A stretch of DNA of 64,000 bases from Aggregicoccus sp. 17bor-14. GTDB lineage: Bacteria > Myxococcota > Myxococcia > Myxococcales > Myxococcaceae. This document shows positions 22,123-54,567 of the stretch, one piece after another (position 1 is the stretch's first letter; each line of letters starts with the position of its first letter). The position numbers and the translations under genes are program-made. Location: positions 1 through 64,000 of the forward strand of contig NZ_VJZZ01000016.1 of the NCBI RefSeq assembly GCF_009659535.1, written 5' to 3'. The notes below the pieces were generated by a model that saw only the letters and a program-made list of their open reading frames with translations, ran no database searches and was not told where the DNA came from.

Positions 22123-22132
22123 CGTAGAGCGG

Positions 22133-23401: not shown

Positions 23402-23405
<4 letters not shown>
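22161..23405 (+). CDS. periplasmic adaptor subunit (HlyD/MacA/RND-adaptor family)
   Basis: A 414-residue membrane-fusion protein linking an inner-membrane ABC transporter to an outer-membrane channel. The GTG start gives the family-typical MDIPRPKKKKK; one membrane anchor (approx. 12-32) follows. Next comes a barrel-sandwich half (VDKILLRPGAQVKPDTVILEL), a long coiled-coil hairpin (approx. 108-225), the second half (HVRAGDTGILQELPLQLGQWVTPG) and a beta-barrel domain. It is coupled by a 4-nt overlap to the ATPase gene. A sigma-54 promoter lies directly upstream. It is the only adaptor in the permease cluster, so it is presumably shared by several permeases. Confidence 0.9.
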
Positions 23406-26773: not shown

Positions 26774-26788
26774 AGAAGGAGCTGGGTC

Positions 26789-29185: not shown

Positions 29186-29201
29186 CCGAGGAGCACCCGC
29201 C

Positions 29202-31631: not shown

Positions 31632-31647
31632 TTCTGGAGGCCCACCG

Positions 31648-31662
31648 TGTCGGGGTGAGGGA
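31648..31662 (+). repeat. hairpin repeat copy 3, tail fragment only
   Basis: Only the tail GTCGGGGTGAGGGA remains, directly after the permease 3 gene. The stem is missing, so no terminator function is expected. Confidence 0.55.
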
Positions 31663-31676
31663 AGCGGGCCCTGCAC

Positions 31677-31703
31677 TGTTCGCCCCTGGGATTGCCCCTT
31701 CCC
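31677..31703 (+). promoter_or_regulatory. putative enhancer (UAS) of the permease 4 promoter
   Basis: TGTTCG-N5-GGGA-N8-TCCC. It begins exactly 115 nt before the end of the -12 element, as in the adaptor promoter. Caution: it starts 15 nt after a repeat remnant, and part of it could be that repeat's extended tail. Confidence 0.45.
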
Positions 31704-31714
31704 AGCCCCGCACA

Positions 31715-31733
31715 GCGCCGCGCTGAGCGGCGC
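31715..31733. promoter_or_regulatory. inverted repeat upstream of permease 4
   Basis: GCGCCGC-N5-GCGGCGC, a perfect 7-bp inverted repeat about 79 nt upstream of the predicted start. It could be a second activator site or simply a GC-rich hairpin. Confidence 0.3.
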
Positions 31734-31776
31734 GAAGCCCCCAGCAAATCCGCCCCCTTGGGACCCACCGCGCCGC

Positions 31777-31792
31777 TGGCACGCCCCTCGCT
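31777..31792 (+). promoter_or_regulatory. sigma-54 -24/-12 promoter of permeases 4-6
   Basis: TGGCACGCCCCTCGCT is identical over all 16 positions to the permease 8 promoter, with GG-N10-GC spacing. The predicted start near 31803 leaves a 48-nt leader with a normal ribosome site. Confidence 0.75.
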
Positions 31793-31850
31793 TTAGCGCC
31801 TCCCGGGCGGCCCGTGTGCCGTCCGCGCGCGCGCAGGAGAGGAGCTCCCG

Positions 31851-34274: not shown

Positions 34275-34305
34275 CGAAGACTGCAGCACCCGAGGAGCAC
34301 GACTC

Positions 34306-36744
34306 ATGGACACCTTCCTGCAGAACCTGCGCTTCGCGCTGCGCATGCTGCGCAAGAGCCCCGGCTTCACGCTCGCGGCGGTCATCACGCTCGCGCTCGG
34401 CATCGGCGCCAACACCGCCATCTTCAGCGTGGTCAACGGGGTGCTGCTGCGCCCGCTGCCCTACCAGAACCCGGACCAGCTGCTGATGCTCTGGGAGGGC
34501 ACGCCCACCTTCCCGGACGCGAGCCTCTCCTTCGCGGACTTCCGCGACTACCGCTCGCGCAACCGCACGCTGGCGAGCGTGGCGGGCTTCCGCACCGAGC
34601 GGCGGGACCTGACGGGCCAGGAGACGCCGGAGCAGCTCAGCGCGCGCATGGCGAGCGCGAACCTGCTGCCCACGCTGGGCGTGCAGCCGGCGCTGGGTCG
34701 CAACTTCAACGCCGATGAGGACCGCAAGGGTGGGGCGCCGGTGGTGATGCTGGAGTACGGCTTCTGGCAGCGGCGCTTCGGCAAGGACCCGAACATCATC
34801 GGGCGCACGCTCACCCTGGATGGCAAGCCGTACACGGTCATCGGCGTGCTTCCGGAGTCCCTGCGCTTCTTCGGCACGCGCGACATCTGGCTCCCACTCG
34901 AGGCCTTCCCCCGCTGCGAGGACTCGCGCGGCTGCCACCCGGGGCTCTACGGCATCGCGCGGATGAAGCCGGGCGTCACGCTGCAGCAGGCGCGCGCGGA
35001 CCTGGAGACGGTAGGCCACGCGATGCAACAGGAGTTCCCGAAGGACTACTCGAACTACCTGCCGCGGGTGAACGAGCTGCACGCGGAGCTGGTGAAGGAC
35101 GTGAAGGGCAGCCTGCTCACCCTGCTCGTCGCGGTGGCCGGCGTGCTGCTCATCGCGGCGATCAACGTGGCGAACCTGCTCCTCGCGCGCGGGGCCACCC
35201 GGGCGCGCGAGCTCGCCATCCGCGCGGCGCTGGGCGCGGGGCGCGCCGTGCTGGTGATGCAGCTGCTGGTGGAGAGCGCGCTGGTGGCGGTGATGGGCGG
35301 AGGCCTGGGGCTCCTGCTCGCGCTGTGGGGCGTGGACGTGCTCGCGGGCAGCCGGCCGGACGCCATCCCCGAGGCGACGAACTTCAGCGTGGACCTGCGG
35401 GTGCTGCTCTTCACGCTGGCGGTGAGCCTGGGGACGGGGCTGCTGCTCGGGATGCTGCCGGCCCTGCGCGGCAGCCAGGTGGCGCTCGCGGGCGCGATGA
35501 AGGGCTCGGACGCGCAGCTCTCGGCGCCCGCGCGCGGCAAGGTGCGCGCGCGCGACGTGCTGGTGGTGGGCGAGGTCTCGCTCGCGCTGGTGCTGCTGGT
35601 GGGCGCGGGGCTCTTGCTGCGCAGCTTCATCCAGCTGCAGGAGCTGGACCTCGGCTTCCGGCCGGACGGGCTGCTCACGCTGCAGACGAGCGCGCCCGAG
35701 TCGCGCTACCCGGCCTCGCAGCTGCGCGCCTTCGCCGACCGGTTGCACGAACGGCTCGCGAGCGCGCCCGGGGTGAAGAGCGCGGTGGTGACGGCGGCGC
35801 TGCCGCTCATCGACTTCAACGAGCAGAGCTTCTACGTGGTGGGCCGGCCGGAGCCGGTGTCACTCGGGGACACGCCGCTCGCGGCGAGCTACCTCGTGGG
35901 CGAGGGCTACTTCGAGACGCTGGGCATCCCGCTGGTGAAGGGGCGCTACCTGCAGCCCTCGGACAAGCTGGGCAGCCCGCTCGCGGTGGTGGTGGACGAG
36001 CGCTTCGCGAGCGCGATGTTCCCCGACGGCAACGTGCTGGGGCAGCGCATCAAGATGGGGCGCAAGGAGGGGGAGCCGTGGGAGATCGTGGGCGTGGTGC
36101 GCCACGTAGCGGGCTACGGCGTGGGGGCGAAGGAGCCGGCCACGATGCAGTTCTACACGGCCATCGCGCAGCGCACGGACGACGACCTGCCGCGCACCTT
36201 CCACGTGGCGATGCGCGGCAGCGGCGACACCGAGGAGGCGGCGCTCTCGCTGGTGCCCACGGTGCGCACGGAGCTCTCCGCGCTGGACCCGGACCAGGTG
36301 CTCTCCGAGGTGAAGCCGATGGAGCGGGTGGTGGCGGAGAGCCTCGGCGAGCGGCGCTTCACGCTGGGGCTCATCGGGCTCTTCGCGGCGCTGGCGCTGG
36401 TGCTGGCGAGCATCGGCATCTACAGCGTCATGTCCTACGCGGTGGTGCAGCGCACGCGCGAGATGGGCATCCGCATGGCGCTGGGCGCGCGGGGTGCGGA
36501 CGTGCTGCGCCTGGTGGTGGGCCACGGCTTCCGGCTCGCGGCCGCGGGCGTCGTCTTCGGCGTCTTCGCGGCGTGGGCGCTCACGCGGCTGCTCTCCGGG
36601 ATGCTCTCGGGCGTGAGCGCCACCGACCCCACCACCTTCGCGCTCGTCGCGCTGGGGCTGGGCGCGGTCGCCGTGTTCGCGAGCTACCTGCCTGCGCGGC
36701 GCGCCGTGAAGGTGGACCCCGTCGTGTCACTGAAGGCCGAGTAG
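34306..36744 (+). CDS. ADOP-family duplicated ABC permease 5
   Basis: An 812-residue near-duplicate of permeases 4 and 6. Its N-terminal 55 residues are almost identical to theirs. The first periplasmic domain carries CEDSRGC followed by HPGLYG, a C-x5-C pair that could form a disulfide in the periplasm. [19 protein letters not shown] marks the first FtsX block, and [12 protein letters not shown] the end. It lies 31 nt after permease 4 and 22 nt before permease 6, with matching CGAGGAGCACGAC-type leaders, a sign that the leader was duplicated together with the gene. Confidence 0.93.
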
Positions 36745-36766
36745 CAGTCCCGAGGGAGCACGACCC

Positions 36767-39211
36767 ATGGATACCTTCCTGCAGAACCTCCGCTTCGCGC
36801 TGCGCATGCTGCGCAAGAGCCCGGGCTTCACGCTGGCGGCCGTCCTCACGCTGGCGCTGGGCATCGGGGCGAACACCGCCATCTTCAGCGTGGTCAACGG
36901 GGTGCTCTTGCGCCCGCTGCCCTACGAGAAGCCCGAGCAGCTGCTCATGCTCTGGGAGGGGACGCCCCAGCAACCGGAGGCGAGCCTCGCGTTCCCCAAC
37001 TACCGCGACTACCGCGACCGCAGCCACACGCTGGCGAGCGTGGGCGCCTTCCGCTCGGACACGCGAGACCTCACCGGCGTGGACAGCCCGGAGCGGCTGA
37101 AGGCGCGCATGGCGAGCGCGAGCCTGCTGCCCACGCTGGGCGTGCAGCCGGCGCTGGGGCGCAACTTCACCGCGCAGGAGGACACGAAGGGCGGCCCGCC
37201 GGTGGTGATGCTGGAGCACGCCTTCTGGGTGCGGCGCTTCGGCAAGGATCCGAGCGTGCTCGGCCGCACGCTCACGCTCAATGGCCAGCCCCACACGGTG
37301 GTGGGCGTGCTGCCGGAGCGCTTCCGCTTCTTCGATGCGCGCGACGTGTGGCTGCCGCTCGAGGACAACCCGCTGTGCGGCGAGTCGCGCGGCTGCCACC
37401 CCGGGCTCTATGCCGTCGCGCGCCCGAAGCCGGGCGTGAGCGTGAGCCAGGTGCGCGCGGACCTGGAGACGGTGGGCTACGCGCTGCAGAAGGAGTACCC
37501 GCGGGCGTACTCCAACTACCTGCCCAAGGTGAACGGGCTGCACGCGGAGATCGTGAAGGACGTGAAGGGCAGCCTCTTCATGCTGCTGGCGGCGGTCGCC
37601 GGGGTGCTGCTCATCGCCACCATCAACGTGGCGAACCTGCTGCTCGCGCGCGGTGCGGCGCGCTCGCGCGAGCTCGCCATCCGCGCGGCGCTCGGTGCGG
37701 GCAAGGGCACGCTGGTGATGCAGATGCTGGTGGAGAGCGCCCTGGTGGGTCTGCTGGGGGGCGTGTTCGGGCTGCTGCTCGCGATGTGGGGGGTGGACGT
37801 GCTCGCCAGCAGCCGCCCGGATGCGATCCCCAGCGCGGCGACCTTCAGCGTGGACGGCAATGTGCTCGCCTTCACGCTGGGGGTGAGCCTGCTCGTGGGC
37901 ATCGTCCTGGGCGTGCTGCCTGCGCTACGCGGCAGCCAGGTGGCGCTCGCGGGGGCGATGAAGGGCTCGGACGCGCAGGTGGAGGCGGCGGCCGGCAGCG
38001 GGCGCCGGCGGCTGCGCGCGCGCGACGTGCTGGTGGTGGGCGAGGTCTCGCTCGCGCTGGTGCTGCTCGTCGCGGCGGGGCTGCTCCTGCGCACCTTCGT
38101 GCAGCTGCAGGGCCTGGACCTGGGCTTCCGTCCCGACGGGTTGCTCACCCTGGGCATCACCGCTCCGGAGAGCCGCTTCGACCTGGCCGCACTGCGCGCC
38201 TTCCCGGAGCGGGTGCGTGAGCGGCTCGCGGGTGCGCCGGGCGTGAAGAGCGTGACGGTGGCGGCGGGCATGCCGATCATCGGCGCGGCCGGGTACAGCT
38301 TCACCGTGGTGGGGCGCCCGGAGCCGGCGACGCTCGGCGAGCAGCCGATGGCGATCGTGTACCCGGTGGACCCGGCCTACTTCGAGACGCTGGGCATCTC
38401 CCTGCTGCAGGGCCGCCTCATCGGCGCGCAGGACCGGCTCGGCGCCCCGCGCGTCGTGGTGGTGGACGAGGCGATCGCGAAGCAGCTGTTCCCGGACGGC
38501 AACGTCGTCGGCCAGCGCATCAAGTACGACGGCGACGTGGCCGAGATCGTCGGCGTGGTGCGCCACGTGGTCCACGATGGCGCCGGGCAGAAGGAGGGAG
38601 CGCCCTTCCAGTTCTACGCGCCGCTCGCCCAGTTCACCGACGAGGCGATGAAGTTCACGCGCGAGTTCGTGGTGGCGGTGCGCGCGAACGGCAGCAGCGA
38701 GGAGGCGGCGCTGGGCCTGGTGCCCACGGTGCGCAGCGAGATCACGGCGCTGGACCCGGACCAGGCGATCTCGGACGTGAAGCCGATGGAGCAGGTGGTG
38801 AGCGAGAGCCTCGGCGAGCGCCGCTTCATGCTCGGGCTCATCGGGCTCTTCGGCGTGCTCGCGCTGGTGCTCGCGGGCATCGGCATCTACAGCGTGATGA
38901 GCTACGCCGTCGTGCAGCGCACGCGGGAGATGGGCATCCGCATGGCGCTGGGGGCGAAGGGCGGAGACGTGCTGCGCCTCGTGGTGGGCCACGGCTTCCG
39001 GCTCGCGCTCGCGGGCGTGCTCATCGGCGTCCTCGCGGCCTGGGCCCTCACCCGGCTGCTCTCCGGGATGCTCGCGGGCGTGAGCGCGACCGACCCCACG
39101 ACCTTCGCCCTGGTGGCGCTGGGGTTGGGCGCGGTGGCGGTGCTCGCGAGCTACTTGCCCGCGCGGCGCGCCGTGCGGGTGGACCCGGTGGTTTCGCTCA
39201 AGGCGGAGTAG
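36767..39211 (+). CDS. ADOP-family duplicated ABC permease 6
   Basis: An 814-residue third member of the 4-5-6 trio. It has CGESRGC before HPGLYA, the same potential disulfide as permease 5, and [19 protein letters not shown] in the first FtsX block. A short Ala/Gly/Arg insertion ([14 protein letters not shown]) precedes the second half. The C-terminus is [12 protein letters not shown]. It is followed immediately by an intrinsic terminator, so it ends the transcript begun at the permease 4 promoter. Most sequence differences from 4 and 5 lie in the periplasmic cores, as expected for substrate diversification. Confidence 0.93.
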
Positions 39212-39223
39212 CGCCCCCGAGCG

Positions 39224-39258
39224 GGGCGGGGGTGCCTCCAACCCCCCGCCCGTTTTTT
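39224..39258 (+). terminator. intrinsic terminator between permeases 6 and 7
   Basis: GGGCGGGGG (39224-39232) pairs perfectly with CCCCCGCCC (39243-39251) over a 10-nt loop, followed by GTTTTTT. It is the clearest rho-independent terminator in the window. It lies only 17 nt upstream of the permease 7 ATG. Confidence 0.9.
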
Positions 39259-39275
39259 CTCGACAGGACCCGCGC

Positions 39276-41726
39276 ATGAACACGCTGCTCCAGGACCTCC
39301 GCTACGCGCTGCGCACGCTGGTGCGCCAGCCGGGCTTCACGCTCGTGGCCGTGCTGGTGCTCGCGCTGGGCACGGGGGTGAACACGGCCCTGTTCACGCT
39401 GGTAGACGCGGTGCTGCTGCGCCCGAGCCCCGGCGTGCACGACGCCGGGCGGCTCGCGTGGTTGAGCACCACGTCGCAGCGCGCGATGCGCCGCTTCCCC
39501 ATGAGCTACCCGGACTACGTGGACTACCGCGACGGGGTGGCTCGCGTGGCGGCGCTCGCGGCCTACGACCGGGCGAGCGTGCACCTCGCGGGGCGGGGCG
39601 GGGAGCCGGAGCGGGTGGGCGCGCACCTGGTGAGCGGCAACTACTTCGATGTGCTGGGGGTGCGCCCGGCGCTGGGCCGCGGCTTCCAGCCCGAGGAGGA
39701 CCGCACGCCGCTCACCCACCCGGTGGTGGTGCTGGGGTACGCGCTGTGGCAGCGGCGCTTCGAGGGAGCGCCGGACGTGGTGGGCAGGAGCCTCACGGTG
39801 AACGGCCACGCCTTCACCATCGTGGGCGTGGCGCCCGAGGGCTTCACGGGCCCGGAGCTCGACGACCGCACCACGGACCTCTTCCTGCCCTTGATGATGA
39901 AGCCCTGGGCGGAGCCGCAGCGCGCGGACGAGCTGCAGCGCCGCAACGCGAGCAGCCTGCGGGTGCTGGGGCACCTGCTGCCCGGGGCGAGCCCCGCCTC
40001 GCTGCAGGCCGCGGTGGACACGGTGTCCGCGCGGCTGGAGAAGGACTACCCGGGGACGCGCAAGGGCGTGGGGGCGCGTGTGCAGCCCTTCCGCGGTGCG
40101 CTGCACCCGCGCTCGGCCGAGGAGGCGAGCGGCGCCGTGATGCTGCTCGCTGCGGTGTGCGGGCTGGTGCTGCTCATCGCGTGTGCGAACACCGCGAACC
40201 TGCTGCTCGCGCGCGGGGCGGGGCGCACGCGCGAGCTCGCCGTGCGGGTGGCGATGGGGGCAGGGCGCGGGCGGCTCGTGCGCCAGTTGCTCACCGAGAG
40301 CCTGCTGCTCGCGCTCGTGGGCACGGGGGTGGGGCTGCTCCTCGCGCTGTGGGCGGCGGACGCGCTCGTCGCGGTGACGGGCGCGCCCATCCCGCTGCAG
40401 GGGGCGGTGGACGGGCGGCTGCTCGCGGTGGCGCTCGCGCTCGCGCTGGGCACCGGCGTGCTCTTCGGCCTGGTGCCGGCGCTGCGCGCGAGCCAGGTGA
40501 GCGTGATGGGCTCGCTCAAGGGCGCGGGGCAGGTGAGCCGCTCGGGGCGGCTGCAGGGCGCCTTCGTGGTGGGGCAGGTGGCGCTCAGCCTCGTGCTGCT
40601 GGTGACGGCGGGCCTCTTCCTGCGCAGCCTCGCCAAGGCGGACCGCATCCCGCTGGGCTTCACGCCGGAGGGCGTGGTGACGGCCGCGGTGGACCTGGGG
40701 GTGCAGGGCTACGACGCGCCCCGGCGCGACGCCTTCTACACGGCGCTGCTCGCGCGCACGCAGAGCCTGCCGGGCGTGGAGAGCGCGGCGCTCACGAGCA
40801 TGGTGCCCCTGAGCGGGCGGATGATGAGCGCGGGCTACGAGCTCTCCGGGGACGAGCGCGTGCCGCTCGAGCAGCGCGAGGAGCGGGTCGCGGGCGTGGC
40901 GGTGGTGACGCCGGGCTACCTGCGCACGCTGCGCATCGCACTGCGCGCGGGGCGGGACCTCTCTGCGGCGGACGTGGCGGGCGCGCCGAAGGTGGCGCTG
41001 GTGAACGAGACCCTGGCGCGCGCGCTCGCGGGGCCGGGCGGCAGCGCGCTGGGCCAGCGCGTCGGGCTGGGCGGCCCGGACCGCATCGAGGTGGTGGGCG
41101 TGGTGGCGGACGGCAAGTACGACGCGCTGGACGAGCCCGCGCGCCCCTTCCTGTACCTCTCCGCGCCGCAGTTTCCCGAGTGGATGACCGAGGCGAGCCT
41201 CGTGGTGCGCAGCCCCGCGGACCCGGCGGCGCTGCTCGCGAGCGTGCGCGCGGAGGTGCACGGGCTGGACGCGGACCTGCCGGTGTACGAGGTGCGCACG
41301 CTGCCGGCGCTGGTGCACGCGCGGCACGAGTTCCGGCGCGCGCTGAGCGGCATCCTCTCGGCCTGCAGCGCGCTCGCGCTGGTGCTCGCCGCGGTGGGGC
41401 TCTACGGCGTGGTGGCCTTCGGCGTGGCGCAGCGCACGCGCGAGCTGGGCGTGCGGCTCGCCCTGGGGGCGCGGCCCGCGGACGTGCTGCGGCTCGTGGT
41501 GGGCGGCGGGGTGCGGCTGGTGCTCGTGGGGGTGGGGGTGGGGCTCGCGCTGAGCGCGGCGCTCACCCGGATGCTCTCGAGCGTGCTCTTCGGCCTCTCG
41601 GCCACCGACCTGCCCACGTTCCTGGGCGTCAGTATCCTTCTCGGGAGCGTGGCGCTCCTGGCATCGTACCTCCCGGCGCGGCGTGCCGCGCGCGTGGACC
41701 CGGCAGTCTCCCTCAAGGCGGAATAG
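39276..41726 (+). CDS. ADOP-family duplicated ABC permease 7
   Basis: An 816-residue diverged paralogue ([20 protein letters not shown]). The first FtsX block is [19 protein letters not shown]; the second half starts [19 protein letters not shown] (approx. 428); it ends [10 protein letters not shown]. The periplasmic cores differ clearly from those of permeases 4-6. It is followed after 6 nt by ATPase 2, which is therefore its likely dedicated engine. A strong terminator just upstream means that it needs read-through or a promoter hidden in the end of permease 6; no -24/-12 element was found for it. Confidence 0.93.
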
Positions 41727-41732
41727 ACCCTC

Positions 41733-42410
41733 ATGACCCAGCCCCTCATCAGCCTGCGCAACGTGGAGAAGAGCGTGCCCACGGGCCCCAGCCGCACCTG
41801 GCTCCTGCGCCGCATCGACCTGGACGTGGCGCAAGGCGAGTTCGTGACGCTCATGGGCCCCTCGGGCGCGGGCAAGAGCACGCTCCTGTCCATCCTCGGG
41901 CTGCTGGATGCCGAGTGGGAGGGCGAGTACCAGCTCGACGGCGAGCCCGTGCACCGGATGAACCACAAGCAGCGCGGCGAGCTCAGCCGGCGCACCATCG
42001 GCTTCGTGTTCCAGCAGTACCACCTGCTGGACGGGCTCACGGTGGCGGAGAACCTCGAGGTCCCCTTGAGCTACCGCAACCTGCCCAAGCGCGAGCGCGA
42101 GGCGCTGGTGGGCGATGCGCTCGACCGCTTCCAGCTCGTGGGGAAGAAGGACCTCTTCCCGAACCAGCTCTCCGGCGGCCAGCAGCAGCTGGTGGGCATC
42201 GCGCGAGCGCTCATCGGCAGCCCGAAGGTGCTGCTCGCGGACGAGCCCACCGGCAACCTGCACAGTGCGCAGGCCACGGAGATCATGGAGCGCTTCAAGG
42301 CGCTCAACCAGGCGGGCACCACGGTCATCCAGGTGACCCACTCCGAGAGCAACGCCGCCTACGGCCACCGCGTCATCCAGCTGCGAGACGGGTGGATCCA
42401 GAAGGAGTAG
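41733..42410 (+). CDS. ABC transporter ATP-binding protein 2 (MacB/LolD type, divergent motifs)
   Basis: A 225-residue ATPase, the usual length for the LolD/MacB group. Walker A GPSGAGKS (42-49), Gln94, signature LSGGQ (146-150), Walker B LLADE (Glu171) and His203 are present. Two positions deviate: the residue after GGQQQ is Leu153 rather than Arg, and the D-loop reads GNLHS with His177 in place of Asp. Both are tolerated in some family members but set it apart from ATPase 1. It lies 6 nt after permease 7 and is followed by a hairpin repeat, probably ending the transcript. Confidence 0.93.
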   Translation: MTQPLISLRNVEKSVPTGPSRTWLLRRIDLDVAQGEFVTLMGPSGAGKSTLLSILGLLDAEWEGEYQLDGEPVHRMNHKQRGELSRRTIGFVFQQYHLLDGLTVAENLEVPLSYRNLPKREREALVGDALDRFQLVGKKDLFPNQLSGGQQQLVGIARALIGSPKVLLADEPTGNLHSAQATEIMERFKALNQAGTTVIQVTHSESNAAYGHRVIQLRDGWIQKE

Positions 42411-45996: not shown

Positions 45997-46022
45997 TGTC
46001 CGCTCCTGGGACGCGCCTTCCC
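45997..46022 (+). promoter_or_regulatory. putative enhancer (UAS) of the permease 8 promoter
   Basis: TGTCCG-N5-GGGA-N7-TCCC. It shares TGTCCG and GGGACGCGCCTT with the adaptor site. It starts 104 nt before the end of the -12 element, 11 nt (one helical turn) closer than at the adaptor and permease 4. No hairpin repeat is adjacent, so here the similarity is not explained by the repeat family. Confidence 0.55.
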
Positions 46023-46085
46023 ACGCCCGCCCACCGAAGCCGCGGAGCGCGAGCAATTCCAGGGCCTTGTCCCCCGAAGAAGCCG

Positions 46086-46101
46086 TGGCACGCCCCTCGC
46101 T
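46086..46101 (+). promoter_or_regulatory. sigma-54 -24/-12 promoter of permease 8
   Basis: TGGCACGCCCCTCGCT, identical to the permease 4 promoter. The predicted start near 46112 leaves a leader of only about 6 nt before the ATG at 46118, cutting into the visible GGAGGG ribosome site. Confidence 0.72.
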
Positions 46102-46117: not shown

Positions 46118-48532
46118 ATGAGCACCTTCCTCCAGGACCTGCGCTACGCCTTGCGCCTGCTGCGCCAGGCGCCCGGCTTCACCCTCGCTGCGGTGCTGGC
46201 GCTCGCGCTGGGCATCGGGGCCACCACGGCGCTCTTCAGCGTGGTGCACGCGGTGCTCCTGCGGCCGCTGCCCTACGCGGACGCCGAGCGCCTGGTCATC
46301 GTGACGGACCCCAGCGCGCAGCCCGGCAGCCAGCGCTACAGCCTCTTCGAGCGCGACGAGCTCGCGCGCGGCGCCACGCAGCTCTCGAGCCTCACGGCCT
46401 ACAGCAACACCGCACTCGCGCTCACGGGGCTCGGGGATGCGCAGCAGGTGCGCGGCGTCCTCACCGACGGGCCCTTCTTCGAGGTGTTCGGCGTGCAGGC
46501 GGAGCTGGGCCGCACGCTCGACCCGCGCACCCCCGAGGCACCGGAGGTGGTGGTGAGCCACTCCTTCTGGGCGCAGCAGCTGGGCGGCAGCCCGCAGGCG
46601 CTCGGCCGCACGCTCACGCTCAGTGGCCAGCCCTACACGCTGGTAGGCGTGATGCCGGACACCTTCGCGGTGCCCAACACGCGGGCGCAGCTGTGGCTCA
46701 CCCAGGCGAGCACGCCCAACGCTTCGCAGCAGGCGGCGCGCACCTCGAAGGGCTGGCGCGCCTTCCAGCTCACGGGACGGCTCGCGCCGGGGGCGAGCCT
46801 CGCCTCCGCGGGCAGCGAGCTCGCGGCGCTCGGCGAGCGGCTCGCGGCCACCTACCCGGACACGCAGGGGGACCTGCACCTGGGCGCGGCGAGCCTGCAC
46901 GAGGCCACGGTGGGCAACGTGCGGCTGCTCCTGTGGGTGCTGCTGGGCGCGGTGGGCTTCGTGCTGCTGCTCGCGGCCTCCAACGTCGCGCACCTGCAGC
47001 TCGCGCGCGCGGCGGTGCGGCAGAAGGAGCTGGCCATCCGCATCGCGCTGGGGGCGAGCCGCGGCCGGCTCGTGCGCCAGCTGCTCACCGAGAGCGTGCT
47101 GCTCGCGCTGCTGGGCTGCGCCCTGGGGCTCCTGCTCGCGCTGTGGGGCACGGACGCGCTCGTCGCGCTCGCGGGCCGGGCGCTTCCGCGCGCGGGTGAG
47201 GTGGGGATGGACGGGCGGGTGCTCCTCTTCGCGCTCGCGACGGCGGTGGCCACGGGCGTGGGGGTGGGGCTGGTGCCCGCGCTGCAGCGCAGCCAGCAGA
47301 GCCCGCAGGCGTCCCTGGGGCGAGGCAGCGCAGAGGCGTTTCGCGGCCGCACGCACGGGGTCCTGGTGGTGGCCGAGGTCGCGCTCGCGCTCGTGCTGGT
47401 GCTGGGCGCGGGGCTGATGCTCAAGAGCTTCTACAAGCTGCAGCAGGTGGACCCGGGGGTGGACGCGGAGGGCATCTACACCGGGCGGCTCAACCTCACC
47501 GGCACGCGCTACCAGGAGGACGCGGCGCTGCTCGCCTTCCAGCAGCAGCTGCTCGCGCGGCTCGCGGCGCGCCCGGAGGTGGCGGGCGCCGGCCTGGGGC
47601 TCAGCGTGCCGGCCGGCGCAGACCAGCGCGGCAACAGCTACCGGGTGGAGGGCACCCCGGAGAACCTGGCGAACCCGCCGCAGGCGATCACCAACGTCGT
47701 GAGCCCTGGCTTCCTCGAGACGCTGCGGGTGCCCCTGCGCGCAGGGCGCCTGCTGCAGAAGAGCGACGACGTGGCTGGAGCGCCGCAGGTCATCGTGGTG
47801 AGCGAGGCCTTCGTGCGCGCGGCCTTCCCGGACCAGGACCCGCTGGGCAAGCGCATCTCCATGGGCCAGGTGGAAGGCAAGCCGGACTGGTACACGGTGG
47901 TGGGCGTGGTGGGGGACGTCGCCTACGACGGCCTCGACACGGCCCCAGGCCCCACGCTCTACCAGCCCAGCGTGCAGTCGCCCTACCGCGCCCCGCAGCT
48001 GGTGGTGCGTGCGGCCGGGGGCATGCCGGTCGAGCGGCTCGCGGGCGTCATGCGCGAGGAGCTGCGCGCGCTGGACCCCAGCGTGCCGCTGGGCGACGAG
48101 ATGACGCTGGAGGCGATGCTCGCCCGCGGGCTCGGCGCGCCGCGCTTCCGCACGCTGCTGCTCGGCGTCTTCGGCGCGCTCGCGCTCGTCCTCGCGGCCG
48201 TGGGCATCTACGGCGTCATGAGCTACGCGGTGGCGCAGCGCGCGCACGAGATGGGCGTGCGCATGGCGCTGGGCGCGCAGCGCCGCGACCTCCTCTCGCT
48301 CGTGGTGGGGCAGTCGCTGCGGCGCGTGGGGCTGGGGCTCGCGGTGGGGCTCGCGCTCGCGCTCGCCGCGCACCGCAGCATCGCGGGGCTGCTCTTCGGG
48401 GTCGGTGCCCTGGACCCCGCCGTCTTTGCCTCGGTGCCCGCGCTGCTCGCCGGCGTGGCGTTCGTGGCCAGCTGGCTGCCTGCCCGCCGGGCAGCCGGAG
48501 TAGACCCCGCCGTGGTCCTGCGCCGCGGCTAG
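46118..48532 (+). CDS. ADOP-family duplicated ABC permease 8
   Basis: An 804-residue permease physically separated from the other seven by four unrelated genes. N-terminus [20 protein letters not shown]; the first FtsX block is strongly altered (LAASNVAHLQLARAAVRQKE), making it the most divergent paralogue. The second half starts [19 protein letters not shown] (approx. 411), and the end is VDPAVVLRRG. The upstream open frame is discarded. Its own sigma-54 promoter matches that of permease 4 exactly, and it directly precedes the sigma-54 activator and kinase genes. It needs an ATPase supplied in trans, since none adjoins it. Confidence 0.92.
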   Translation: MSTFLQDLRYALRLLRQAPGFTLAAVLALALGIGATTALFSVVHAVLLRPLPYADAERLVIVTDPSAQPGSQRYSLFERDELARGATQLSSLTAYSNTALALTGLGDAQQVRGVLTDGPFFEVFGVQAELGRTLDPRTPEAPEVVVSHSFWAQQLGGSPQALGRTLTLSGQPYTLVGVMPDTFAVPNTRAQLWLTQASTPNASQQAARTSKGWRAFQLTGRLAPGASLASAGSELAALGERLAATYPDTQGDLHLGAASLHEATVGNVRLLLWVLLGAVGFVLLLAASNVAHLQLARAAVRQKELAIRIALGASRGRLVRQLLTESVLLALLGCALGLLLALWGTDALVALAGRALPRAGEVGMDGRVLLFALATAVATGVGVGLVPALQRSQQSPQASLGRGSAEAFRGRTHGVLVVAEVALALVLVLGAGLMLKSFYKLQQVDPGVDAEGIYTGRLNLTGTRYQEDAALLAFQQQLLARLAARPEVAGAGLGLSVPAGADQRGNSYRVEGTPENLANPPQAITNVVSPGFLETLRVPLRAGRLLQKSDDVAGAPQVIVVSEAFVRAAFPDQDPLGKRISMGQVEGKPDWYTVVGVVGDVAYDGLDTAPGPTLYQPSVQSPYRAPQLVVRAAGGMPVERLAGVMREELRALDPSVPLGDEMTLEAMLARGLGAPRFRTLLLGVFGALALVLAAVGIYGVMSYAVAQRAHEMGVRMALGAQRRDLLSLVVGQSLRRVGLGLAVGLALALAAHRSIAGLLFGVGALDPAVFASVPALLAGVAFVASWLPARRAAGVDPAVVLRRG

Positions 48533-48605: not shown

Positions 48606-50072
48606 GTGGTGACCGCCGTGTCCCAGCCTGCTTACGAGTCCGCCTCCCCCGTGACCACCCCCGCTCCCGCCCCCGCTCCGCAGCAGCCACGCATCCTCGT
48701 CGCCGACGACCAGGCGGACGTGCTCGAGGCGCTGCGCCTGCTGCTCAAGCGCGACGGCTTCTCGGTCGTCACCACGCAGTCGCCCGCCGGCGTGATCAGC
48801 GCGCTGGAGGGGCAGGACTTCGACCTGCTGCTGATGGACCTCAACTACACGCGCGACACCACGAGCGGGAAGGAGGGCTTCGACCTGCTGCAGAACCTGC
48901 GCAGCCACGACGCGAACCTCCCGGTCATCGTGATGACGGCGTGGGGCAGCGTGGAGGGCGCGGTGGAGGCGATGCGCCGCGGGGCGCGCGACTACGTGCA
49001 GAAGCCCTGGGACAACACGCGCCTGCTCGCCACGCTGCGCACGCAGCTGGAGCTGGGCCGCGCGCTCAAGCGCACGCGCCGGCTGGAAGAGGAGAACACC
49101 CACCTGCGCGCCAAGGGCGAGCGCCCCGCCTTCCTCGGCGAGAGCCGCGCGATGCTGCCGGTGAAGAAGCTCATCGAGCGCGTGGCGAGCAGCAGCGCGA
49201 ACGTGCTCATCACGGGCGAGCACGGCACGGGCAAGGAGGTGGTCGCGCGCTCCCTGCACGCGCTGAGCGGGCGCGCGGGCACCCCGTTCGTCGCGGTGAA
49301 CGCGGGCGGCCTCTCCGAGGGCGTCTTCGAGAGCGAGCTGTTCGGCCACGTGAAGGGCGCCTTCACGGACGCGAAGAGCGACCGCATCGGCTGCTTCGAG
49401 CTCGCGGACGGGGGCACGCTGTTCCTCGACGAGATCGGCAACATGCCGCCCAGCCAGCAGGCGAAGCTCCTGCGCGTGCTGCAGACGGGCGAGCTGCACC
49501 CGGTGGGCAGCAGCAAGGTGCGCCGGGTGAGCGTGCGCGTGGTGAGCGCGACGAACGCGGACCTGGGCAAGGCGGTGGAGGAGGGGCGCTTCCGCGAGGA
49601 CCTGCTCTACCGGCTCAACACGGTGGAGGTGCAGCTGCCGCCGCTGCGCGAGCGCACCGAGGACATCCCCATCCTCGCCTCGCACTTCCTGGACGTGCAG
49701 GGCCAGAAGTACGGCCGGCCCGGGATGCGCTTCGACTCGGGCGCGCTCGAGGCGCTCATCGCCTACACCTGGCCGGGCAACGTGCGCGAGCTGGAGCACG
49801 CGGTGGAGCGCGCGCTGCTCATGGCCCAGGGCGACACGGTGGGCGCCGAGGACCTGCTGCTGCGCCGGCGCGGCGGCGGCGAGGGCGGCAGCGCGCGGCT
49901 CGAGGAGATGACGCTGGAGGACGTGGAGCGCCACCTCATCCAGAAGAGCCTCGTGCGGCACGCGGGCAACGTGAGCGACGCGGCGCGCGCGCTGGGCCTC
50001 AGCCGCAGCGCGCTCTACCGGCGCATGCAGCACTTCGACATCACCAGCGCCGCCAAGGGTCAGAAGGGGTAG
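48606..50072 (+). CDS. sigma-54-dependent response regulator (NtrC type) with GAFTDA loop
   Basis: A 488-residue enhancer-binding protein. The receiver domain (28-145) is complete: Asp34/Asp35, phospho-acceptor Asp78, Thr111 and Lys133. The AAA+ domain (approx. 174-400) has Walker A GEHGTGKE (204-211) and Walker B TLFLDE (271-276). The sigma-54 contact loop reads GAFTDA (251-256) instead of GAFTGA. The C-terminus carries a Fis-type helix-turn-helix (NVSDAARALGLSRSALYRRM). Three GTG codons (48606, 48609, 48618) are possible starts. It is cotranscribed with the kinase 2 nt downstream and is the obvious activator of the sigma-54 promoters in this locus. Confidence 0.92.
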   Translation: MVTAVSQPAYESASPVTTPAPAPAPQQPRILVADDQADVLEALRLLLKRDGFSVVTTQSPAGVISALEGQDFDLLLMDLNYTRDTTSGKEGFDLLQNLRSHDANLPVIVMTAWGSVEGAVEAMRRGARDYVQKPWDNTRLLATLRTQLELGRALKRTRRLEEENTHLRAKGERPAFLGESRAMLPVKKLIERVASSSANVLITGEHGTGKEVVARSLHALSGRAGTPFVAVNAGGLSEGVFESELFGHVKGAFTDAKSDRIGCFELADGGTLFLDEIGNMPPSQQAKLLRVLQTGELHPVGSSKVRRVSVRVVSATNADLGKAVEEGRFREDLLYRLNTVEVQLPPLRERTEDIPILASHFLDVQGQKYGRPGMRFDSGALEALIAYTWPGNVRELEHAVERALLMAQGDTVGAEDLLLRRRGGGEGGSARLEEMTLEDVERHLIQKSLVRHAGNVSDAARALGLSRSALYRRMQHFDITSAAKGQKG

Positions 50073-50074
50073 GG

Positions 50075-51457
50075 ATGAAGAGGCGGCGCCAGCCCCTCAA
50101 GCACGACGTCCACGTCCTCCTCCTCACGCTGCTGGCGGGCCTGCCCGGCTCCGTCACCGCGCTGTGGATCCTCTGGGACGGGGACTTCAGCCTGAAGGTG
50201 CGCTGGACGCTCTCCGCCCTCATCCTCTGCGTGTGGGGCGGCGCGGCGCTCGCGGTGCGCGAGCGCGTGACGCGGCCCCTGCAGACGGTGAGCAACCTGC
50301 TGCTCGCGCTGCGCCAGGGCGACTACGGCGTGCGCGGGCGCGGCGGCCGGCTCAACGACCCGCTCGGTGAGGTCTTCCTCGAGGCCAACGTGCTCGGCGA
50401 GACGCTGCGCGAGCAGCGGCTCGGCGCGCTGGAGGCCGGCGAGCTGCTCTCCAAGGTGATGGAGGAGATCGACGTGGCGGTGCTCGCCTTCGACGAGGGC
50501 GCGCGCCTGCGGCTCGTGAACAAGGCGGGCGAGCGGCTGATGGGCAGGGGCCGGCGCGACCTGCTCGGCCAGGCGGCGGAGGCGCTCGCCCTCGGGGAGC
50601 TGCTCGAGGGCGCGGCGCCGCGCCGGGTGAGCCCCACCTTCGCGGTGAGCACGCCGGGCCACGAGGGCGGCCCCTACGAGCTGCGCCGCTCCTCCTTCCG
50701 CCAGCACGGCCTGCCGCACACGCTGGTGGTGCTCGCGGACCTGGGCGCGGCGCTGCGCGAGGAGGAGCGCGAGGCGTGGAAGCGGCTCATCCGCGTGCTC
50801 AGCCACGAGATCAACAACTCGCTCGCCCCCATCCACTCGATTGCCGCGGGCCTGCAGGACGCGCTCACGCAGCAGCCGCGCCCCTCGGACTGGGACGAGG
50901 ACGCGGCGAGCGGGCTCGCGGTCATCGCGCGGCGCAGCGCGAGCCTCAGCCGCTTCATGAGCAGCTACGCGCGGCTCGCGCGTCTGCCGCCACCTTCCCT
51001 GGGCACCGTGGCCGTGAGCGAGTGGGTGCGGCGCGTGGCGAGCCTGGAGAAGCGCCTCGCCGTGGAGGTGCGCGCGGGCCCCGAGCTCACGCTGCGCGCG
51101 GACGGCGACCAGCTGGAGCAGCTGCTCATCAACCTGGTGCGCAACGCGGCCGACGCGGCGCTGGAGACCCAGGGCCGCGTCTGGTTGTCGTGGAGCGTGG
51201 TGGCGCCCGGAGCCCTCGAGGTGTGGGTCGAGGACGAGGGGCCGGGCCTGCCGGACACCGCGAACCTCTTCGTGCCCTTCTTCACCACCAAGCCCAACGG
51301 CAGCGGCATCGGGCTCGCGCTGAGCCGGCAGATCGCCGAAGCCCACGGCGGCAGCGTGCGGCTCGAGAACCGCGCGGGAGAGAAGGGCTGCCGCGCGCGG
51401 CTGCGCCTCCCGTTCGAGGTGCGCGCCCCGGCCCCCGCGCAGAACGCTACGGCCTGA
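50075..51457 (+). CDS. membrane sensor histidine kinase
   Basis: A 460-residue kinase. Two transmembrane helices (approx. 12-34 and 44-62) have only about ten residues between them, so there is almost no periplasmic sensor and the signal is probably sensed within the membrane. A HAMP-like linker (RVTRPLQTVSNLLLALRQGDY), a PAS-like domain (approx. 118-225) and the phospho-acceptor His244 in RVLSHEINNSLAPI follow. The ATPase domain has N-box INLVRNAADAA, G1 VEDEGPGL and G2 GSGIGLALS. The ATG follows GGGGTAGGG. It pairs with the preceding response regulator. The tiny sensor loop fits detection of envelope stress or of a transporter. Confidence 0.92.
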   Translation: MKRRRQPLKHDVHVLLLTLLAGLPGSVTALWILWDGDFSLKVRWTLSALILCVWGGAALAVRERVTRPLQTVSNLLLALRQGDYGVRGRGGRLNDPLGEVFLEANVLGETLREQRLGALEAGELLSKVMEEIDVAVLAFDEGARLRLVNKAGERLMGRGRRDLLGQAAEALALGELLEGAAPRRVSPTFAVSTPGHEGGPYELRRSSFRQHGLPHTLVVLADLGAALREEEREAWKRLIRVLSHEINNSLAPIHSIAAGLQDALTQQPRPSDWDEDAASGLAVIARRSASLSRFMSSYARLARLPPPSLGTVAVSEWVRRVASLEKRLAVEVRAGPELTLRADGDQLEQLLINLVRNAADAALETQGRVWLSWSVVAPGALEVWVEDEGPGLPDTANLFVPFFTTKPNGSGIGLALSRQIAEAHGGSVRLENRAGEKGCRARLRLPFEVRAPAPAQNATA

Positions 51458-51618: not shown

Positions 51619-52398
51619 GTGACCGTGCTCCGTCTCGCAGCTGCGCTCCTGCTCGTGCTCCTCGCCACGCCTGCGCGCGCGCAGGACGTCGACCTGCCCG
51701 CGCTGCTCGCGCGCATCCGCGAGGCCACGCCGGGCGTGAGCTACCTGGTGAAGGAGCGGCTGCAGGCGATGACGGTGACCTCGGTCACCGAGGAGCGCGA
51801 CGGCAAGGGGCGCGTGACGCACACCTACGAGCGGGTGCGGCGCATCAGCGAGCAGGAGGGCAAGCGCACGAGCGCGGTGCTGCGCGCCGTGGACGACGGC
51901 AAGGACGTGACGGCGCTGCGCCGGCGCGAGGCCGAGGAGCGCGAGACGAAGGAGGGGCCGGAGAAGAAGGAGGACGACAAGGGGATGTCCTTCGAGCTGC
52001 CCTTCACCGCGGAGAACCAGCCGCGCCACCGCTTCAGCGTGGTGGGACCGGACGCGCGAGACCCGCGCCTCCTGGTCGTGCACTTCGAGCCCGCGGGCGA
52101 GCGCGACCCGGCGGTGATGGAGGGCGAGGCGCTGGTGGATCCCACGAGCGGACAGGTGCGCCGCCTGCGCTTCCGCCCCTCGAAGTACCCGAGCATCCTC
52201 ATCGACCGGCTCGACGTGGAGATGGACTTCCGCAGCCACCCGCAGGTGGGCGCGGTGCTCACCCGCATGGTGGTGGACGGCGAGGGCGGGCTGCTCTTCT
52301 TCAAGAAGCGCGGCCGCTCCACGCTCAGCTTCAGCGACGTGGTCTTCAAGCCCACGGGAGCGCCTTCGGGCGCCACCATGGTCCACGCCGCACCGTAA
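51619..52398 (+). CDS. secreted LolA-like protein
   Basis: A 259-residue protein with a clear signal peptide (LRLAAALLLVLLATPARA-QD). The body is charged and beta-rich: LVKERLQAMTVTSVTEERDGKGRV, then a Lys/Glu-rich loop (EGPEKKEDDKG), then GEALVDPTSGQVRRLRFRPSKYP...DVEMDFRSHPQVGAVLTRMVVDG. The last part resembles the end of LolA/LppX-type lipoprotein-carrier folds. The GTG at 51619 has GGAGG 6 nt upstream. A role in carrying lipid or lipoproteins in the periplasm is possible but inferred only from fold-like patterns. Confidence 0.65.
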   Translation: MTVLRLAAALLLVLLATPARAQDVDLPALLARIREATPGVSYLVKERLQAMTVTSVTEERDGKGRVTHTYERVRRISEQEGKRTSAVLRAVDDGKDVTALRRREAEERETKEGPEKKEDDKGMSFELPFTAENQPRHRFSVVGPDARDPRLLVVHFEPAGERDPAVMEGEALVDPTSGQVRRLRFRPSKYPSILIDRLDVEMDFRSHPQVGAVLTRMVVDGEGGLLFFKKRGRSTLSFSDVVFKPTGAPSGATMVHAAP

Positions 52399-52407
52399 CC
52401 GGGACGC

Positions 52408-52434
52408 TGTTCGCATCTGGGAAGCGCGCATCCC
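52408..52434 (+). promoter_or_regulatory. putative enhancer (UAS) of micro-protein 1
   Basis: TGTTCG-N5-GGGA-N8-TCCC, with no hairpin repeat adjacent. It starts 173 nt before the end of the -12 element at 52581. A 12-bp perfect palindrome, AGAGCGCGCTCT (52464-52475), lies between it and the promoter. Confidence 0.45.
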
Positions 52435-52565
52435 GCAAGCGGCGAGCGCCGAGAGCAGGCAGGAGAGCGCGCTCTGCCCTGCGGGCGTAGCCCCGGGGTC
52501 CAACGCCCCTCGTAGAGGGCTGAACCCACGGGCTTTTTCGCAGCGCCCTGGAGGCCCCCGGGCGT

Positions 52566-52581
52566 TGGCACGCGCCATGCT
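52566..52581 (+). promoter_or_regulatory. sigma-54-like promoter of micro-protein 1
   Basis: TGGCACG-CGCC-ATGCT has a perfect -24 half and correct GG-N10-GC spacing, with one mismatch in the -12 half. The predicted start near 52592 gives a leader of about 49 nt with GGAG before the ATG. Confidence 0.6.
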
Positions 52582-52640
52582 CATGGAAGGGATGTGCGGA
52601 CGCAAAGGTGCGGACGCCACGAACCCCTGGAGCACACGCC

Positions 52641-52754
52641 ATGAGCACCCTCGCCAAGAACAGCCACGACCTCACCTCCTTCGGGCTCAGCGCGCTGATG
52701 AGCGGCTACGTCCTCGGCTTCGTCGTCCTCTGCGCCCAGTACATCCACGGCTAG
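52641..52754 (+). CDS. 37-residue membrane micro-protein 1
   Basis: MSTLAKNSHDLTSFGLSALM, then one hydrophobic helix (approx. 15-33, ending VVLCAQYIHG). It aligns along its whole core with micro-protein 2, 535 bp downstream: HD[LV]-x(3-4)-[GL]-[LA]-L-x-ALMS-x-x-[VH]-[LV]-x-x-[FL]-V-x-[LV]-[LC]. Conservation of a spaced pair, a GGAG ribosome site and a sigma-54-like promoter argue that it is a real gene. It is presumably an inner-membrane peptide. It might modulate the kinase or permeases, but that is inference from shared promoter motifs. Confidence 0.7.
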   Translation: MSTLAKNSHDLTSFGLSALMSGYVLGFVVLCAQYIHG

Positions 52755-52954
52755 TGCGCGACATCCCGCGGGCCTGTCCAGGCCGCGGGAAGATGAGAGC
52801 AGGAGCCGGCGCGCAGTGACGGGCCGGCAGAGAGACCCCGGGAGTGAGGCGCCGCGCCGGAGCGCGCGTCGAGAGCCCCTTCCGGGAGTGAGCGGAGCGA
52901 GCGCCGCAGCGCACCCCGCGTAGAGCCCCTTTCACGCTTCGACTGTTTGCCCGT

Positions 52955-52993
52955 GTCCTCCCTCTCCCTCTGGGAGAGGGTCGGGGTGAGGGA
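52955..52993 (+). repeat. hairpin repeat copy 7, full length
   Basis: GTCCTCCCTCTCCC-TCT-GGGAGAGGG with TCGGGGTGAGGGA; identical through the whole core to copy 4. The tandem 49-bp units begin just after its tail. Confidence 0.85.
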
Positions 52994-53002
52994 GGCACGC
53001 TC

Positions 53003-53149
53003 GGCACTGTGCGCCCGTGGGACGCGAGCATCCCTAACGCATCGTGAGCAGTGCGCTGTGCACTTGTGGGACGCGCCCGTCCCGAGCGCATCGCGAGCAG
53101 TGCGCCGTGCGCCCGTGGGACGCGCGCATCCCGCGAGCGCCGCACGAGC
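53003..53149 (+). repeat. three tandem 49-bp units carrying enhancer-like motifs
   Basis: Imperfect units start near 53003, 53051 and 53100. Each contains GTGnG/CA-N-GGGACGCG-N4-TCCC in the same layout as the putative enhancers: motif starts are 53008, 53057 and 53106, GGGA is always 11 nt after the motif start, and TCCC follows 8 nt after GGGA. The copies lie 130-228 nt upstream of the end of the -12 element at 53236. The first copy starts 15 nt after a hairpin repeat, so part of the motif may derive from that repeat's tail. Confidence 0.65.
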
Positions 53150-53220
53150 TCCTTCGCCCGCCTGCCCGCACTGCGCGAAGACCCATCGAACTTCCGCGCA
53201 CTTCGCTGCGTGCACGCGCG

Positions 53221-53236
53221 TGGCCCGCGCCTTGCT
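53221..53236 (+). promoter_or_regulatory. sigma-54 -24/-12 promoter of micro-protein 2
   Basis: TGGCCCG-CGCC-TTGCT differs from the consensus TGGCACG-N4-TTGCW at one base and keeps GG-N10-GC. The predicted start near 53247 leaves a leader of about 42 nt containing an excellent AAGGAGGA ribosome site. Confidence 0.72.
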
Positions 53237-53288
53237 CTCTGCTGTCGTGTGCGCGGCGCACGACTCTGCACCGCGGAAGGAGGACGTC

Positions 53289-53414
53289 ATGCCGCAGATG
53301 ATGGAGCAGGCGAAGAAGGCGCAGCACGACGTGTCGGGGCTGGCGCTGGGGGCGCTGATGAGCACGCACGTGTTCACGCTGGTGCTGCTGTGCCTCGACT
53401 ACATGGGGCGCTGA
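53289..53414 (+). CDS. 41-residue membrane micro-protein 2
   Basis: MPQMMEQAKKAQHDVSGLAL, then one hydrophobic helix (approx. 17-36) ending LCLDYMGR. It is homologous to micro-protein 1: HDVSGLALGALMS against HDLTSFGLSALMS, and LLCLDYMG against LCAQYIHG. The ATG has AAGGAGGA 5-6 nt upstream, the best ribosome site nearby. A near-consensus sigma-54 promoter and three tandem enhancer-like units precede it. The longer in-frame extension upstream runs through the repeats and is rejected. Its function is unknown; it is expected in the inner membrane. Confidence 0.75.
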   Translation: MPQMMEQAKKAQHDVSGLALGALMSTHVFTLVLLCLDYMGR

Positions 53415-53598
53415 TGGGCTGCCGGTGCACACAGTGGGCGTGAGGTAGGCGCCCCTCGTGCGCTGCAACTTTCCCCTGCAGCAGGATGCGCAGGGGCCGG
53501 GTCACGCGAGCCCCACGCCGGCGCATTTCCTCTGTGCGGTGTGCTCGCGGTAGAGAGGGAGACTGGCGTGAACGTCCACGCCGTTGGGAGCTCCCTGC

Positions 53599-54567
53599 AT
53601 GCGCCTCGTCGTCAGTCTCCTCGTCTCGCTCTCGCTGGTGGGCTGTGCGCATGGCGGGCGCGAGGCGGCGAAGGCCCCTGCAGCGTCCCTCGTCGCGCCG
53701 CCTCCCGCCGCGCTCGCTCCCGAGGCCGAGGGCCGCAAGCTCGCGGGTGAGGCGGACCGGCGCGCGAGCGTGGGCGACACCACGGCGGCTCTGGAGCTGT
53801 ACCGGCGCGCGTGGGAGCTCGGCGTGCGCGAGGACGCGGCGCTGTACAACGCGGCGTGCGCGGCGTCGCTCGCGGGCCAGACGGCCGAGGCGCTCACCTG
53901 GCTGCAGCGCGCGGCGGACGCGGGCTTCGCGCACGCGGCGCACCTGCAGCAGGACCCGGACCTCGCGGCTGCGCGCGCGGAGGAGGGCTTCGCGGCCGTG
54001 GCCGCCCGCGTGGCGGAGAACGAGGCGAAGCTCACCCTCGCGAGCGACCCCGCGCTGCGCGATGCGCTGCTGCAGCGCATGGCCGAGGACCAGGTGGCGC
54101 GCGCGGCGGTGGAGAAGAGCGACTACCGGGACGAGGCGGCCACGGCGCGCCTGCGTGCGGTGGAGCAGCAGAACACGCAGTGGCTGAAGGAGCAGGTGAC
54201 GAAGGGCGGCTGGCCCACGCGCTCGCAGGTGGGCGAGCGCGGCGCGCAGGCGGCGTGGCTGCTGGTGCAGCACGCGGATGGGGACCTCGCGTTCCAGAAG
54301 CAGTGCCTCGCGCTGCTCGAGGGGGCCGCGGCCTCGGGCGAGGCGGCGAAGAAGAGCGTGGCCTACCTCACCGACCGCGTGCTGGTGGCCGAGGGCAAGC
54401 CGCAGCGCTACGGCACGCAGTTCCACCGCCCGGAAGGGCTGCCCGTGCCGCGCACGATGGAGGACCCGGAAGGCGTGGACGCTCGCCGCGCGGCGATGGG
54501 ACTCGCGCCGCTCGCCGACTACACGCAGCAGCTCGAGCAGCTTCAGGCGGAGGTGCCGACCCCCTAG
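53599..54567 (+). CDS. lipoprotein with TPR-like region and DUF6624 domain
   Basis: A 322-residue lipoprotein (MRLVVSLLVSLSLVGC, Cys16). Residues approx. 50-130 form TPR-like helices (TAALELYRRAWELGVREDAALYNAACAASL). The C-terminal domain (approx. 165-285) matches DUF6624: NTQWLKEQVTKGGWPTRSQVGERGAQAAWLLVQHAD and VAYLTDRVLVAEGKPQRYGTQF. This domain is widespread but uncharacterised. The ATG has GGGAG 8 nt upstream. It is likely an outer-membrane or inner-membrane tethered protein facing the periplasm. Confidence 0.82.
   Translation: MRLVVSLLVSLSLVGCAHGGREAAKAPAASLVAPPPAALAPEAEGRKLAGEADRRASVGDTTAALELYRRAWELGVREDAALYNAACAASLAGQTAEALTWLQRAADAGFAHAAHLQQDPDLAAARAEEGFAAVAARVAENEAKLTLASDPALRDALLQRMAEDQVARAAVEKSDYRDEAATARLRAVEQQNTQWLKEQVTKGGWPTRSQVGERGAQAAWLLVQHADGDLAFQKQCLALLEGAAASGEAAKKSVAYLTDRVLVAEGKPQRYGTQFHRPEGLPVPRTMEDPEGVDARRAAMGLAPLADYTQQLEQLQAEVPTP

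Follow-up and report, generated by a model that had tools for sequence, protein, structure and literature searches.

A new family of single-helix microproteins that probably belongs to an exporter–kinase regulon with sigma-54-type promoters in myxobacteria

AcrZ and KdpF are small accessory subunits of the transporters AcrB and Kdp, respectively, MgrB acts on PhoQ, and TisB and Hok are short hydrophobic toxin peptides. AcrZ and MgrB also serve as examples of small membrane regulators in the literature (PMC11539335). In Bce-type modules, a kinase with hardly any extracellular loop is combined with an FtsX/MacB-like ABC transporter (PMC3023708, PMC10314905). A small partner of ADOP permeases is not described in the papers searched.

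The locus analyzed here lies in a window of 64,000 nucleotides, which is the whole stretch of DNA analyzed, from Aggregicoccus sp. 17bor-14. On its plus strand are located (i) an HlyD-type adaptor gene (22161–23405), the first gene of an exporter operon; (ii) seven ADOP/MacB-type duplicated permease genes in tandem (24308–41726); (iii) the second of two ABC ATPase genes (41733–42410); (iv) an eighth permease gene (46118–48532) of the ADOP family of duplicated permeases (TIGR03434; 869 bits against the NCBIfam cut-off of 622); (v) an NtrC-type response regulator gene (48606–50072); and (vi) a histidine kinase gene (50075–51457). The first ABC ATPase gene starts at 23402, between the HlyD gene and the permeases. 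Most other kinase loci examined have one to three tandem ADOP permeases. The regulator consists of a receiver, a sigma-54 AAA+ domain and a Fis helix-turn-helix, the domains that define an NtrC-type activator, and its GAFTGA loop reads GAFTDA, a variant. The kinase has two N-terminal helices connected by a short periplasmic loop of about nine residues, followed by PAS and HATPase domains.

The locus resembles Bce-type modules in that transporter, kinase and regulator are encoded together, the kinase is of the two-helix, short-loop form, and the permease is of the MacB/FtsX kind. It differs from them in belonging to a Gram-negative organism and in having an HlyD adaptor, duplicated ADOP permeases and an extra microprotein; moreover, the Bce regulator is OmpR-type, whereas here an NtrC-type regulator is combined with sigma-54. 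The kinase is present in ten genera of the bacterial family, and the layout is Bce-like but with the NtrC-type regulator and sigma-54.

The original prediction placed two homologous membrane microprotein genes of 37 and 41 residues in this region, and both were located: gene 1 (52641–52754, plus strand; product MSTLAKNSHDLTSFGLSALMSGYVLGFVVLCAQYIHG, 37 residues) and gene 2 (53289–53414, plus strand; product MPQMMEQAKKAQHDVSGLALGALMSTHVFTLVLLCLDYMGR, 41 residues), in which the 37-residue register of the family starts at residue five (base 53301). The two peptides share 40% identity over 35 residues (BLASTP E 6e-9 in a single comparison). The genes had also been described as lying just downstream of the kinase gene; they do lie near it, but one gene (51619–52398, plus strand), encoding an unclassified predicted secreted protein, intervenes between the kinase and gene 1. 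No counterpart of that protein was found in the other kinase loci. Ribosome sites were read from the sequence of both genes, as predicted, namely GGAG (52629–52632, plus strand), 8 nt 5′ of the ATG at 52641, and AAGGAGG (53277–53283, plus strand), 5 nt 5′ of the ATG at 53289. By eye, a strong hairpin follows 3′ of gene 1.

Each peptide contains a single hydrophobic stretch (residues 14–32 in gene 1, where a transmembrane helix is predicted, and residues 18–36 in gene 2), and AlphaFold2 models the 37-mer as a single helix (residues 3–36, mean pLDDT 79). The model backs the predicted single helix and nothing beyond it. The charges flanking the hydrophobic stretches of the family peptides point to no clear orientation in the membrane.

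Two further features surround the genes. A palindromic, REP-like element of 33 bp (CCCTCTCCCnnTGGGAGAGGGtCGGGGTGAGGG) occurs in seven copies in the window (at 42421, 48542, 51468, 52960, 55363, 57307 and 63074), where none is expected by chance, and one copy sits between the two microprotein genes. Downstream of gene 2 is a gene for a DUF6624/TPR protein (53584–54567), which neighbors a microprotein gene in the window and in several Pyxidicoccus-type genomes (L076, L079 and L080), with differing orientation.

Single-sequence searches of relatives returned mostly chance matches and missed most members, and profiles were required to collect the family. Among 195 genomes of the phylum, the microproteins were found in 29, which belong to three genera: the genome studied here, with 3 copies, 25 of the 27 Myxococcus/Pyxidicoccus-type genomes, and 3 of the 7 genomes of a third genus. 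An enlarged-profile search of the 195 genomes found no member outside these genera. Most Myxococcus/Pyxidicoccus-type genomes have one copy, two of them have two, and a contig scan with the Myxococcus profile matched only three loci, in P. caerfyrddinensis, P. fallax and M. dinghuensis. Full-length profile matches mostly have E values of 1e-10 to 1e-20. The third copy in the genome studied here (MHQMPESLYDNAVLNMSPVVAAYMVGLLALLLTYMQG) is located outside the window, on contig 16 (94729–94839; 10130–10240 of locus L074), and is divergent from a CBS-domain gene.

All members are 36–41 residues long with one helix each, and 16 diverse members align over 37 columns without gaps. M1, D10 and Y34 are the only residues that never vary among these 16, that is to say, the HD...ALMS core noted for the two window peptides is not family-wide; D10 and Y34 are in turn absent from the third-genus copies. 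Of the pairs that could be used, 87% have a dN lower than their dS, with a median ratio of 0.59. Homologs with conserved coding signals in related genomes, which had been named as the check on the two genes, thus exist, and the claim stands. The 5′ region is itself conserved, as would be expected if the open reading frames (ORFs) were spurious and the conserved elements were regulatory DNA or RNA from which no peptide is made, but this explanation is highly improbable: because dN is below dS, length is nearly constant, ribosome sites are present and the hydrophobic core is retained even at 11–27% identity, the reading of the two ORFs as genuine protein-coding genes is well supported by the comparative sequence data. 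The suggestion that they are undescribed held as well, with no match in Pfam, NCBIfam or PHROGs (best PHROGs E 0.07, not significant) and no description of this peptide or of the exporter operon in the papers searched, a search largely outside subscription journals. The microproteins form a new family of an already known type, and its control region is both unusual and unusually well conserved.

The −24/−12 elements predicted for both genes are present exactly, at 52566–52581 for gene 1 (TGGCACGCGCCATGCT) and at 53221–53236 for gene 2 (TGGCCCGCGCCTTGCT), both on the plus strand. Every family copy has such a promoter about 60–75 nt before its start, with GG at −24 and GC at −12 ten bases apart within TGGCAC-N5-TTGCW; deviations are GA at −12 in both copies of genome G089 and ATGC for TTGC at 52566. 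The Myxococcus-type copies all have TGGCCC-N5-TTGCT 64–76 nt 5′ of the family start codon, and the third copy in the genome studied here has TGGCAGGGCCTTTGCT with correct GG-N10-GC spacing. An upstream activator site, the further feature of a predicted sigma-54 promoter, accompanies the copies except that third one (C16:94729), which has the promoter and no enhancer recognizable with the matrix described below.

A blind scan for a −24/−12 element within 95 nt, a ribosome site and a hydrophobic ORF of 28–60 codons outside called genes covered about 936 kb, made up of the window together with 20 kinase loci and 26 microprotein loci. Nothing but family members came out, with alternative starts of one ORF counted once. 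In genomes G087 and G089 of the third genus, the scan found 37-residue ORFs (MFGSQIQNDSNPFVVMCSVIAVYVVSSAFLLIDFIQP and MFSSEIKNDSNPFFIMCSVIAVYVIGSAALIIDFIHP) immediately 5′ of HlyD in the exporter operon, and on the same strand. The third-genus copies thus joined the family through the promoter scan and were then put into the profile. The peptide MFGSQIQNDSNPFVVMCSVIAVYVVSSAFLLIDFIQP is only 11–27% identical to other members, and of 2000 segment-preserving shuffles, 36 scored at least as high against the family profile as one of the two ORFs and 1 at least as high as the other. Judged by sequence alone, the case for homology is therefore modest for the one and good for the other; the exact length, the promoter variant, the leader hairpin and the enhancer, which is present at the third-genus copies too, add to it. 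The profile that includes these ORFs found two more copies (G088:C57:4674 and G089:C10:48845). The G089:C10 copy faces a lone ADOP-type permease gene in convergent orientation, and immediately 5′ of its own start that permease gene has an enhancer-like site and the −24/−12 element TGGCACGCGGCTCGCT.

The enhancer reads TGTyCG-N4-TGGGACG followed by a less constant half and, in 13 exporter promoters of other genomes, precedes the −24 element by about 90 nt; exporter operons of many genera have it at this distance. A matrix built solely from those 13 promoters hits both microprotein genes in the window (per-position p 1.1e-5 and 1.8e-5) as well as the promoters of HlyD, 31851 and 46118, the p values spanning 0.8e-5 to 1.8e-5 overall. 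The motif said to be shared with the permease promoters is thus found at both genes and at three promoters of the permease operons, all on the plus strand: the exporter-operon promoter region (22033–22148; enhancer 22033, −24/−12 at 22133, TGGCACGCAGTTCGCT), an internal permease promoter (31677–31792; enhancer 31677, −24/−12 at 31777) and the promoter of the eighth permease (45997–46101; enhancer 45997, −24/−12 at 46086). Upstream of gene 2 is an array of three 49-bp direct repeats (53004–53150, plus strand) with one enhancer site each (53008, 53057 and 53106), and the enhancer site of gene 1 (52404–52452, plus strand; TGTTCGCATCTGGGAAGCGCGCATCCCGCAAGCG from 52408) is a fourth member of this repeat family.

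The 6.9-Mb genome contains four exact TGTNCG-N4-TGGGACG sites, two of which are followed by a good −24/−12 element, namely 45997 (46118 promoter) and 53008 (53289 promoter). Four genomes of another genus (G070, G074, G079 and G080; 9.4–10.1 Mb) contain the exact TGTyCG form once each; in three, the exporter −24/−12 element follows 100 nt on, and in the remaining one the site lies within the kinase locus and the same −24/−12 element was not recovered by pattern. Nearly all Myxococcus-type copies have an enhancer by the matrix, mostly 174–220 nt 5′ of the ATG and on the opposite strand; some of these sites match the exporter matrix weakly (p up to 8e-4), and L068 and L070 have their top-scoring site at another position, though the sequence itself can be seen where it usually lies. 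With two mismatches allowed, 14 matches were found in the window against 8.75 expected, which is not clearly above chance, and the argument therefore rests on exact and matrix matches, position and conservation. On these grounds the sequence comparisons indicate that the upstream motif is a real enhancer and more than chance.

Other exact matches in other genomes were considered as targets and set aside, since most are intragenic or have no good −24/−12 element. One exact enhancer with a −24/−12-like site (locus L158, G114:C4:572417) precedes a gene for a soluble small protein of 77 residues (MAKTTQRGQVIRRSARQVK...), which is either a further target or a coincidence and is probably unrelated.

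Between promoter and start codon, the Myxococcus-type leaders (for example, L075 and L088) share a stem-loop, TGCC-n-CGCG-N5-CGCG-n-GGCA. Over 19 sequences, 90% of its cells are paired, compared with 21–57% in slid versions, and covariation is slight. A stem-loop of gene 2 (GTCGTGTGCGCGGCGCACGAC; 53244–53264, plus strand) has the position of the conserved hairpin of its homologs, and the third-genus copies have a hairpin similar to that of the Myxococcus type. From these sequences, the hairpin may adjust how well the mRNA is translated or how stable it is. One subgroup has the hairpin base-paired with the ribosome site, and this, together with peptide size and hydrophobicity, would suit a stress-induced, membrane-active, toxin-like peptide of the TisB/Hok type that lowers membrane energization, its translation being limited by the hairpin. 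Such a toxin is quite unlikely, in that most genomes of the Myxococcus/Pyxidicoccus genus have just one copy of the gene, at the same conserved chromosomal position, the conserved N-terminus is acidic or polar rather than a cationic amphipathic helix, and an unsystematic look recognized no antisense RNA gene.

Kinase orthologs (54–73% identity) are present in 59 of 96 genomes of the bacterial family, that of the window included. All 29 microprotein genomes have the kinase, and none of the 37 kinase-less genomes has the microprotein (Fisher 2.5e-8, a value that is phylogenetically confounded); within the third genus, co-occurrence is 3/3 versus 0/4 (p 0.029). The microprotein appears to be dispensable to the system because most other kinase-bearing genera have no recognizable copy. 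The sequence data thus suggest that the peptide needs the system and that the system does not need the peptide.

A location always within the kinase/permease locus was ruled out, because in Myxococcus-type genomes the gene occupies an unrelated locus, with a peroxiredoxin gene and, beyond it, a PTS cluster on one side, and genes for a predicted secreted metalloprotease and a related short secreted protein on the other. The names peroxiredoxin, PTS and predicted secreted metalloprotease are our own assignments, which we take from the sequences rather than from database matches. An operon with the downstream metalloprotease gene is disfavored, since a conserved intergenic stretch (CCTGGACGGGA...TATAA) resembles, by eye, a separate promoter. 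This setting would suit a small protein that works in the envelope independently of the exporter and has only the activator in common with it; we regard that explanation as unlikely, given the linkage to the exporter operon or to a second permease in another genus and the strict co-occurrence with the kinase. The predicted membership in the same regulon as the permeases is borne out by the shared enhancer and promoter class, the strict co-occurrence with the kinase and the linkage to the permease operon in a second genus. Because footprinting identifies the enhancer with the one at the HlyD–ABC–ADOP permease–response regulator–histidine kinase operon, assignment of the microproteins to the exporter–kinase regulon is well supported at the level of sequence.

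The NtrC-type regulator (48606–50072) is presumed to activate this regulon, and, once activated by the kinase (50075–51457), it would presumably switch the microprotein genes on. The peptide would then insert in the inner membrane, and a role as a small inner-membrane modulator or signal, as originally proposed, is consistent with one predicted helix and no other domain. The microproteins may be regulon-made accessory subunits that bind and tune the ADOP/MacB-type exporter, by analogy with AcrZ on AcrB or KdpF on Kdp, a reading on which our confidence is evenly divided. We favor it because, beyond the window, the system-linked copies sit next to permease genes or permease operons and not next to the kinase. 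Like AcrZ and KdpF, the peptides have fewer than 50 residues, a single predicted membrane helix and co-regulation with a transporter, which is seen here through the shared promoter class and enhancer only; in contrast, no sequence relation is shown, and the putative target is an ADOP/MacB-type ABC permease. The neighboring permease belongs to the ADOP family (TIGR03434), of which the microprotein is not part. As an accessory subunit, the peptide would be an optional adjuster, which some lineages with the exporter have and others lack.

The chief rival to the accessory-subunit reading is that the peptide attaches to the membrane region of the kinase and weakens or strengthens its signaling, thereby feeding back on the regulon that produces it, in the manner of MgrB with PhoQ; it is the chief rival because a kinase without a sizeable periplasmic sensor may rely on a membrane partner, as in Bce-like systems. 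The loop of about nine residues leaves little periplasmic sensor of the kinase's own, so that a membrane partner is probably needed, and the same regulon produces the peptide, which is never found without the kinase and in the window is encoded by a gene (gene 1) one gene downstream of that for the kinase. However, many genomes have the kinase without the microprotein, system-linked copies elsewhere adjoin permease operons rather than the kinase, and the permease itself could be the kinase partner, as in Bce modules. The likeness to MgrB extends to a short single-pass peptide that is the output of a two-component system it possibly modulates, whereas the regulator here is NtrC-type and works with sigma-54, and the conserved cysteine pair of MgrB is absent from the microproteins. 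We consider kinase feedback possible but doubtful. Somewhat less probable still is that this undescribed family serves ADOP permeases and their loop-less kinase as a dedicated membrane partner, in a sigma-54-run exporter–kinase–peptide sensing module of a Gram-negative, predatory lineage, where the peptide would couple the state of the exporter to the kinase.

The combination of a sigma-54 promoter, a ribosome site and a short hydrophobic ORF is a cheap microprotein finder, free of false positives over about 0.9 Mb, and the peptide it recovers is conserved as a gene yet missing from the family databases searched. With the regulon outlined here, ADOP permeases gain a wiring diagram whose parts are a two-component system, a small membrane peptide and a specific enhancer motif, and permeases and peptide alike become open to direct tests in genetically tractable myxobacteria.
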